Positions 27,570 to 29,805 of a stretch of 40,081 bases of DNA are shown one piece after another. Under the pieces are notes generated by a model, which searched no databases, was not told the DNA's origin, and saw nothing but the letters and a program-made list of their open reading frames with translations. The position numbers were made by a program, and so were the translations under genes. Positions within the stretch are counted from its first letter, which is position 1. Every line of letters begins with the position of its first letter. Source of the DNA: Armatimonadota bacterium (GTDB taxonomy: Bacteria; Armatimonadota; Fimbriimonadia; Fimbriimonadales; Fimbriimonadaceae); assembly GCA_021413725.1 (NCBI GenBank), contig JAIOPU010000208.1:1-40081 (forward strand), in the 5' to 3' direction.

Positions 27570-27650
27570 AGGGTTCATTCTACTTTGAGTCTGTGGGTTT
27601 CGGAAGGGCGACCGGGACTAATTGACCAGCAGATTCTTAATTTTGTTGCA

Positions 27651-28199
27651 TTATTGGGTTTTGAGGAGGTGGAGGCGGTGCTGGAAGATGTCGAATTTCT
27701 TTGATTCGCGTTCGGTGGCGCACCATTTTTCGATTTTTGGAATGTCGATTGGGTGGAGTTTCGCTACGGCAAGGGCTTGCTCGAGTCCGCTGTAGTCGTC
27801 GTTGAAGAGGAACCATACCAGGCGATCTCGTACGCAGTCTGTCGGGGTTAGGATGTGGAGCAATTGGTCGCACTTTCGCAAAGTGTCCCATTTATGAATG
27901 AGTTCGCTTCCGATGGCTAGTGGGCCGGTGGGGAATTCCAGAGTAAATGTTGTGTGTGGATGGATGTAGGTCTGGCCCTTTTCGACAAACCCGAGGGCGG
28001 TCAGGGGTTCGTTGGAAGGGTTGTCGCCTACGAAATTTAGGGAAAGGATGAAATCCAAGTCTCGGGATTGGTAGGCGTCGGGCGCGTAAACCGTCGCCGC
28101 CCCGCCTCCAGAGAGGATCGCTGTGGAACCGGATTTGTCCATGGCGGTGCAGACGATGTACGCGAGGTCTTCGAGCGTCGTGCTATGGTCAATCTTCAA
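27651..28199 (-). CDS. Nucleotidyltransferase-fold protein, possible toxin of a toxin-antitoxin pair
   Basis: The 182-residue protein has the nucleotidyltransferase signature of AbiEii/DUF6036-type proteins: a helix (DLAYIVCTAMDKSG), AILSGGGAATVYAPDAYQS with Gly31-Gly33, then RDLDFILS with Asp47 and Asp49 as metal ligands, and a later strand TTFTLEFPTGPLAIG that could supply the third carboxylate (Glu). The C-terminal half is helical (LHILTPTDCVRDRLVWFLFN, GLEQALAVAKLHPIDIPKIE). Such proteins act as toxins that modify tRNA or other targets, or as housekeeping enzymes. It overlaps the winged-helix gene by 4 nt (28196-28199), the usual antitoxin-toxin coupling. Toxicity is an inference from arrangement. 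Confidence 0.75.
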   Translation of the reverse strand: MKIDHSTTLEDLAYIVCTAMDKSGSTAILSGGGAATVYAPDAYQSRDLDFILSLNFVGDNPSNEPLTALGFVEKGQTYIHPHTTFTLEFPTGPLAIGSELIHKWDTLRKCDQLLHILTPTDCVRDRLVWFLFNDDYSGLEQALAVAKLHPIDIPKIEKWCATERESKKFDIFQHRLHLLKTQ

Positions 28200-28534
28200 A
28201 TCTGCTTACCTGAACGCCTAGGTCGCCGCCGATTTTCAGCGAGTTTCGTCTGCATCGCCGTGTCTTGCAACGCCATTTTGTCCAGGAGTGCTTTGAGCTC
28301 TGCGATCAAAAGGTATCTGGGGTTCAGCCGGACGCGTCGGGTTCGGCCTTCTTCAACTCCAATGACAAGTCCAGCCCGCTCCAGGCTGTCGATGGCCTTT
28401 TGCGTTAGGCTGAGGCTGATCGCCAGGACTCGCGCGACTTCAGAGGCGTGGGTTTCCTTGAGCATGTGGATTGCGAGCAGGGTGTTTGTTCGGTTCAGAG
28501 TTCCAAATAGACCAACCCGGTATATTTTTGCCAT
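28196..28534 (-). CDS. Winged-helix transcriptional regulator, possible antitoxin and autorepressor
   Basis: The 112-residue basic protein has one winged helix-turn-helix (about residues 10-70): LNRTNTLLAIHMLKETHASE, VARVLAISLSLTQKAIDSLE as recognition helices, and the wing GLVIGVEEGRTRRVRLN. A helix (YLLIAELKALLDKMALQDTAMQTK) that may dimerise follows, with a very basic tail (ENRRRPRRSGKQI). It resembles MarR/ArsR-like regulators rather than AbiEi. The next gene, a nucleotidyltransferase, overlaps it by 4 nt. Two copies of AGGTG-N4-CACCT lie 23-58 nt upstream of its start, so autoregulation is likely. The -10-like TAGTAT (28541-28546, minus) is six nt before the ATG. Confidence 0.75.
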   Translation of the reverse strand: MAKIYRVGLFGTLNRTNTLLAIHMLKETHASEVARVLAISLSLTQKAIDSLERAGLVIGVEEGRTRRVRLNPRYLLIAELKALLDKMALQDTAMQTKLAENRRRPRRSGKQI

Positions 28535-28556
28535 TTCTGGATACTACCTTAAAAAG

Positions 28557-28592
28557 AGGTGACACCACCTATAAAAGAGGTGATATCACCTC
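28557..28592. promoter_or_regulatory. Two palindromic operators upstream of the winged-helix gene
   Basis: Site one is AGGTG-N4-CACCT at 28557-28570; site two is the same pattern at 28578-28591 inside a perfect 16-bp palindrome GAGGTGATATCACCTC (28577-28592). Their centres are exactly 21 bp apart, two turns of DNA, so two dimers would bind on the same face. They lie just upstream of the presumed -10 box. Confidence 0.7.
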
Positions 28593-28604: not shown

Positions 28605-28634
28605 AAAAAATGCCCCGGTCATGGCGACCGAGGC
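28605..28634 (-). terminator. Rho-independent terminator of ftsZ
   Basis: On the minus strand GCCTCGGTC and GACCGGGGC form a 9-bp stem with one G-T pair (28626-28634 with 28612-28620), a 5-nt loop and then an A and six T. It lies 35 nt after the ftsZ stop and insulates the toxin-antitoxin-like pair from ftsZ transcription. Confidence 0.8.
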
Positions 28635-28668: not shown

Positions 28669-29805
28669 TTACATGCCCAACTTTTGGCGGCGCAAGAATG
28701 CCGGAACGTCCAGATCAATCTCATCCAATTGAATCTGAGTCGGCATCTGCGGTTGCACCATTACCTGTGTGCTCGGAACCGCGCTCACCACACCGGGAGT
28801 CTCAGTGGGGCGCGTCGTAAAAACCTCGCGGTCTCTCGGAGTTACCCTTTTGATCTCAGGCATTCCTGCCGCGAGGAGCGTAATGTAGACTTCGCCATCG
28901 CCACCATCGCGGGCGACATGACCGAGGAAGACATCAGCGTCTTCGGCGTCGGCGAACTGCATGATGTACTCCATCGCGTCGTAGGCTTCCCCAATCGAGA
29001 AGTCGCGACCGGCGGTGATGTTGATGAGAAGTTTCTTTGCGCCCTCAATCGAGGTCTCGATGAGAGGACTGCTGACGGCGGCCTGCGCGGCGAGTTTTGC
29101 ACGCTGCTCGCCCACGCCTCGGCCCATTCCCATGAGCGCGACTCCAGCATCCTTCATGACCGTGCGGACATCAGCGAAGTCCACATTGATCAAGCCGGGA
29201 AGAAGGATGATGTCGGAAATTCCCTGCACGCCTTGGCGCAGGACATCGTCGGCGGCCTTAAAGGCCTCCATCATAGTGGTCTTTTTCTCAACGAACTGCA
29301 CGAGGCTGTCGTTCGGAACCGTGATCAAAGTATCGACGTGGTCTTTCAGTCGCGCCGCGCCCTCAGCTGCTTGGCGTCTTCGTCGCGGACCTTCGAAATT
29401 AAACGGTTTAGTGACGACGCCAACGGTAAGAATTCCCAGCCGGCGAGCCATTTCGGCGACAACCGGTGCACCACCGGTGCCAGTTCCACCGCCCATACCA
29501 GCGGTGATGAAAACCATATCGGCTCCATCAAGTAGAGCGGAAATTTCGGCTTCGCTCTCACGAGCAGCGGTCTCACCTTTGGCAGGATCTCCCCCCGCAC
29601 CTAAGCCGCGCGTGGTCGCTTCGCCGAGTTGAAGCTTAGTTTTGGCTTTATTCAGGTCAAGCGCTTGCGCATCTGTGTTCATGGTGATGAACTGGACACC
29701 GGCAACGCCGACTTCAACCATTCGGTTGATCGCATTACCGCCCGCGCCACCGATACCGATGACCTTAATATTTGCCTGATTGTCGAAGAGATTCTCCGGT
29801 TTCAT
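28669..29805 (-). CDS. ftsZ: Cell division protein FtsZ
   Basis: FtsZ is the tubulin-like GTPase that forms the division ring at mid-cell. The 378-residue protein is of normal length. The GTP-binding part is clear: [17 protein letters not shown] (about 13-29), [25 protein letters not shown] and the signature [18 protein letters not shown] (about 103-120). The T7 loop region [13 protein letters not shown] carries the catalytic Asp. A variable linker with Pro and Gln follows, then the conserved tail [11 protein letters not shown], which binds FtsA or ZipA-type partners. It is transcribed alone: the gene upstream is divergent, there is no ftsA or ftsQ next to it, and a terminator follows at once. 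Confidence 0.98.

Follow-up and report, generated by a model that had tools for sequence, protein, structure and literature searches.

The DNA analysed here (hereafter the window) is a stretch of 40,081 nucleotides from an Armatimonadota bacterium, contig JAIOPU010000208.1. On its minus strand it carries a pair of genes that the initial annotation had read as a winged-helix gene and a nucleotidyltransferase gene overlapping by 4 nt, and this reading stands. The first gene (28196..28534, minus strand) starts with ATG and encodes a protein of 112 aa, here called wHTH, with a MarR/ArsR-like winged helix and a basic C-terminal tail, predicted to be both autorepressor and antitoxin. The second (27651..28199, minus strand) starts with TTG and encodes a Pol-beta-type nucleotidyltransferase (NTase) of 182 aa with a C-terminal helical domain, predicted to be the toxin. 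According to the ORF calls the two genes have the sequence TTGA in common (28196..28199, minus strand), an arrangement consistent with translational coupling.

An intrinsic terminator (28612..28634, minus strand) separates the module from ftsZ. It had been described as strong; the 10-bp stem with seven G-C pairs, followed by T6, is indeed present, its strength being a reading of the sequence. The region scanned contains seven matches to terminator-type consensuses versus 5.2 expected, this terminator among them. The interval from the NTase stop codon to the ABC-transporter gene (27579-27650) yielded no terminator, so transcripts may read through between these two genes. The ABC gene is not adjacent to ftsZ in relatives. 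An empty site between the two was sought, and since they are not neighbours in relatives none could be demonstrated. The genome encodes two FtsZ-like proteins (28669-29805 of the window and G000:C66:1560-2624), 53% identical to each other; most of the 31 relatives searched have two as well.

The NTase has no match that holds up in Pfam, NCBIfam or PADLOC. It does match phrog_13263, a PHROG family with no function recorded, at 3e-21. Its nearest profile is DUF2204 (PF09970), with hhalign probabilities of 75-85%; the NTase itself is not matched by PF09970 and three of 19 family members are so weakly (best 0.0019), which suggests a distant relative at most. Low-scoring matches to glutamate-cysteine ligase (TIGR01434, 0.019; 1v4g, 0.022) were not backed by other members and were dismissed as chance. 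The AlphaFold2 model, made with 79 family sequences, has a pLDDT of 93.3 and a pTM of 0.89. Its nearest structures according to Foldseek are ANT(2'')-Ia, 5uvd, MenT1 (8an5) and LnuA (probability 1.00, E 1e-3 to 1e-2, TM near 0.5). In terms of modelled fold alone, antibiotic-type NTases (ANT(2'')/Lnu) and the toxin MenT1 are equally near.

The nucleotidyltransferase motif reported earlier is present as LSGGGAATVYAPDAYQSRDLDF. Motif I spans residues 30-49 (SGG ... S45-R-D47-L-D49; 28053..28112, minus strand) and includes the metal-binding DxD. Alignment identifies E88 (27936..27938, minus strand), a position with D or E in the family, as candidate third catalytic carboxylate, and R124-D125-R126 (27822..27830, minus strand), conserved as K/R-D-R, opens the C-terminal helical domain. 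Residues G31, S45, D47, D49 and D125 are invariant in the 79 NTase sequences, whereas G32, E88, K124 and R126 are nearly so, the latter two reaching at least 90%. The catalytic site is intact. S45, two residues ahead of the DxD, is invariant in both alignments A1 and A4. In MenT1 the corresponding motif is T39xD41xD43, of which T39 is phosphorylated upon antitoxin binding (PMC11375011); by analogy, NTase S45 would occupy the position of this threonine.

The partner protein is best described as MarR-like. In Pfam wHTH hits MarR_2 at 2.9e-05, which is under the curated cut-off, and it matches PHROG 18520, of unknown function, at 6.8e-07. Its AlphaFold2 model (pLDDT 86.8) shows a winged helix, helices at 77-100 and then the tail, and Foldseek retrieves ScoC/MarR-type regulators (best E 5.8e-4). 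The tail, RRRPRRSGKQI in the window (residues 102-112; codons at 28199..28231, minus strand), is predicted to be disordered, with a pLDDT of about 63-65 for these last 11 residues. It is nevertheless nearly invariant: the family pattern RxRPRRxGKPL is among the most conserved parts of wHTH, the strict pattern is found in 77 of the 81 distinct sequences and the remaining four show small changes. R102, P105, R106 and K110 are invariant or nearly so. A DNA-binding N-terminus followed by a disordered, nearly invariant tail is an antitoxin-like build. One locus, L165, was considered as a natural fusion and rejected, as it is a frameshift that removes the tail. In another, L170 (CAMAXE010000012.1), titled Klebsiella pneumoniae, the wHTH tail matches that of the uncultured gammaproteobacterium L144, and the record is probably a mislabelled MAG.

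Upstream of wHTH, two sites of the form AGGTGNNNNCACCT at 21 bp from each other had been pointed out, and both were found exactly, at 28557-28570 and 28578-28591. The latter is the centre of a perfect 16-bp palindrome, GAGGTGATATCACCTC (28577..28592), also recognised earlier, which we designate as putative operator 1; it fits the pattern AGGTNATATNACCT without mismatch. Putative operator 2, AGGTGACACCACCT (28557..28570), was identified by motif scan. The form AGGTGNNNNCACCT is expected 0.05 times in the whole window and two occurrences were reached in none of 100 shuffles. The 21-bp unit has a third, degenerate copy (28540-28560, 81% identical) that ends within 6 bp of the start codon; the operator-like part was placed at 28536..28549, with a tentative -10-like hexamer, TAGTAT, 6 nt before the start codon. 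A sigma-70 promoter scan yielded no candidate that passed, the spacing of the -10-like hexamer is not enriched across the family, and a conserved leaderless promoter, when tested across the family, was unsupported.

The core of the palindrome, the 14-mer AGGTGATATCACCT (28578-28591), occurs nowhere else exactly in the window's assembly, which is 88% complete; single-mismatch versions are located at C33 and C125. A related site, AGGTGATATTACCT at G000:C33:4534-4547 (L206), is a perfect fit to the family operator and immediately precedes the start of a RidA-like gene, which may be chance or a second wHTH target. Across the family, palindromes are found upstream of wHTH in 56 of 108 regions (shuffle frequency <=0.05). 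If up to two mismatches are allowed, the pattern AGGTNATATNACCT is present in 44 of the 106 upstream regions, spanning phyla, where 0.6 are expected, and it is perfect in 13 of these 106 versus 0.0 expected. The pattern was picked after the palindrome survey and is therefore not blind, but the excess is far larger than that effect. Conservation of the operator supports the predicted self-regulation by wHTH.

Homologues were collected most effectively with a query alignment centred on Campylobacterota and Bdellovibrio members; single-protein scans of genome contigs and tblastn of phages gave no match. The possibility that the NTase is a housekeeping enzyme found without the regulator, named at the outset as one that would speak against the toxin-antitoxin reading, was checked in two ways and not borne out. 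Among 95 loci recruited by the NTase alone or as NTase plasmid matches, 93 have a wHTH gene directly upstream on the same strand, and the two unpaired loci are broken copies with wHTH remnants; these loci are not all independent, since several Leptospira prophage loci are near-identical. Among 101 relatives, NTase and wHTH (E < 1e-11) are confined to 17 genomes, each of which has both, side by side and in a constant order. The same-genus genome G001 has neither. More distant NTases of the same phylum that lack a wHTH partner (L018, L085-L089) are possibly solo relatives of the toxin-like NTase. No third gene could be assigned to the module: no Pfam family is present in more than four of the 107 flanking proteins. 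Some integrases and Fic, PIN and AbiE genes were seen near the pair, without background control.

By record titles, mostly of MAGs, the pair is found in about 20 phyla, among them Campylobacterota, Chloroflexi, Acidobacteria, Cloacimonadota, Aminicenantes and, by one record, Woesearchaeota. Complete records place it on plasmids of Bdellovibrio, Sulfurimonas, Sulfurospirillum and Leptospira, and it is also present in prophages and IMG/VR contigs. Sequence identity does not follow taxonomy. NTases from an Armatimonadetes and a Cloacimonadota record share 83% identity, where the best for the window's NTase in that set is 40%, and those from a Flavobacteriaceae and a Campylobacteraceae record are 72% identical. 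With due caution regarding MAG binning, this points to horizontal transfer of the pair.

Broken copies of either gene also occur. A broken NTase is found beside an intact wHTH in about ten loci (G011, G012:C2, the first G005 copy, G175, L115, L123, L154, L170, L. kirschneri pLiSL22 and L. weilii pDO6). In pDO6 (L212, NZ_CP040842.1, about 51742-53039) IS5-type transposase genes directly follow an N-terminal NTase fragment while wHTH is intact, which looks like an IS5 insertion. The tandem at G005:C7:2539-3941 (L037/L046) consists of an intact wHTH, an NTase remnant, a second intact wHTH and an intact NTase. The reverse situation, a broken wHTH with an intact NTase, was encountered in L. noguchii p2 and p3, where p1 of the same strain holds an intact pair, and at G058:C659, where C271 of the same genome does. 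This is the pattern a toxin and its antidote would leave. The excess of NTase breaks, 10 of 12 events, is by itself not significant after correction for gene length (P about 0.1, calculated by hand), and errors in MAG assembly may account for some of the single-base breaks.

Taken together, we consider it likely that the pair is a mobile, autoregulated, type II-like toxin-antitoxin module from a family for which we found no description. Its genes are adjacent, overlapping and co-occurring, and its distribution is patchy and associated with mobile elements. A toxin-antitoxin-type pair distinct from AbiE had been suggested at the outset, and comparison supports this well: the basis consists of the obligate pairing, mobility, an operator that crosses phyla, decay, a fold near that of MenT1 and an antitoxin that is not of the AbiEi type. 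The pair, its operator, tail and conserved active site are read from the sequences and the fold is a predicted one. From these we infer toxicity, target and neutralisation, as well as whatever part the pair may play in maintaining plasmids or defending against phages.

The mechanism we propose is as follows. A wHTH dimer would bind AGGTNATATNACCT palindromes over its own promoter and so repress the operon, for which the window offers two good sites and a weak one, spaced by two helical turns. The NTase would attach a nucleotide to an acceptor in the cell, most likely the tRNA 3' end or another RNA, such that free NTase would halt growth. wHTH would neutralise the NTase by direct contact, most likely via its disordered basic C-terminal tail; the antitoxin may also bring about phosphorylation of NTase S45, in a MenAT-like manner. 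More tentatively, and with some doubt as to whether all of its parts will hold, we suggest a new toxin-antitoxin family of many phyla, its NTase being neutralised by a minimal MarR-like antitoxin through an 11-residue tail, RxRPRRxGKPL, under a single operator code, AGGTNATATNACCT, in about 20 phyla, with possibly a new nucleotide-acceptor target.

The main rival explanation is that the NTase modifies a small molecule, an antibiotic or nucleotide-like poison, in the way of ANT(2'') or Lnu enzymes, controlled by a MarR-type repressor that a ligand would release. It is a serious rival, given that MenT1 is no nearer in fold than the ANT(2'')/Lnu enzymes: the nearest structures include ANT(2'')-Ia and LnuA, with ANT(2'')-Ia level with MenT1. 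One family member moreover weakly matches Lnu(E) (E 0.077), and wHTH is MarR-like. However, wHTH is short, shows no evident ligand-binding domain and ends in a nearly invariant tail, and the two genes are almost never found apart, which is unusual for a resistance enzyme, while the pair extends over about 20 mostly environmental phyla. A resistance gene would also tolerate loss of its repressor, whereas an intact NTase with a broken wHTH is found only where an intact pair is present elsewhere. We regard this explanation as rather unlikely. Still another reading, which we hold to be improbable, has the NTase nucleotidylate wHTH in a reversal of the type VII HEPN-MNT logic, the pair then being a sensor or regulator without toxin. 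MNT proteins that AMPylate their HEPN partners provide the precedent (PMC7641770) and wHTH offers a conserved, exposed tail, but that tail contains no conserved Tyr, Ser or Thr acceptor and no other recurrent neighbour gene is available for regulation.

A further alternative retains the toxin-antitoxin module and differs in the role of the tail, which would be a DNA-binding arm for the minor groove, with neutralisation occurring via another surface or via S45 modification as in MenAT3. The tail is Arg/Pro-rich, as are DNA-binding arms, many operators have A+T-rich flanks, and the residue corresponding to the phosphorylated position of MenT, S45, is invariant. The tail is, however, equally conserved in relatives of the window whose operator flanks are G+C-rich (L025, L029), and we judge this alternative to be unlikely, albeit one to be taken into account.

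If the toxin-antitoxin reading is confirmed, the NTase toxins, so far mostly represented by AbiE and MenAT, gain a two-gene family that is very widespread and has a far smaller antitoxin. The nearly invariant tail would then, if it acts as proposed, offer direct access to the way in which an NTase toxin is silenced, and the operator that crosses phyla allows autoregulation to be checked in vitro using any of the family's members. In the plasmid records examined the genes are annotated as just hypothetical or winged-helix, so current defence and toxin-antitoxin annotation likely misses the system. In the open-licence literature we found neither an earlier description of the family nor a paper on MarR, ArsR or winged-helix antitoxins.

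Several known systems resemble the pair. ANT(2'')-Ia and LnuA, the nearest folds (E 1.4e-3 and 6.7e-3, TM 0.5-0.56), have the same size and two-domain plan and share 10-14% identity with the NTase; to our knowledge they do not form an obligate pair with a wHTH-type regulator. PHROG 13263 and 18520 are likely the same two families as NTase and wHTH. HEPN-MNT and the PADLOC candidate system PDC-M05 involve NTases, as does the system described here. wHTH matches part of PADLOC's PDC-M05A (20-102 of 201, 2.5e-07), as do all 21 family members, and PDC-M05A is named as the NTase of PDC-M05, with a HEPN protein as partner (PMC12988326). Membership of HEPN-MNT (type VII) or PDC-M05 was rejected: the partner is a wHTH, a HEPN gene is absent and no PADLOC match of the NTase holds up.

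AbiEi/AbiEii, a type IV abortive infection system, likewise consists of a wHTH regulator gene followed by an NTase gene and is autoregulated through inverted repeats in its promoter (PMC7319586). AbiEii (PF08843) reaches an hhalign probability of 42% against the NTase, obtained from relatives, while in Pfam the NTase is unmatched at E up to 1 and a PF08843 search of its own genome was empty. AbiEi has a large C-terminal antitoxin domain, whereas the 112-aa wHTH lacks one and ends in an 11-residue tail; PADLOC returned no AbiEi match for wHTH. That the antitoxin does not look like AbiEi, as the initial annotation remarked, is thereby borne out, and the pair is not AbiE. MenAT of M. tuberculosis (MenT1/MenA1, MenT3/MenA3) is likewise a two-gene system whose NTase is of the Pol-beta type. 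The solved structures nearest in fold to the window's NTase include MenT1, and the Ser/Thr at position -2 of the DxD is conserved here too. Sequence similarity to MenT is remote, a profile search having found no MenT PDB chain, and neither MenA1, a 7.4-kDa protein, nor MenA3, a wHTH with a large C-terminal domain, is related to the wHTH partner. As judged from sequences and models, the pair resembles MenAT in layout and fold rather than being a member of it.
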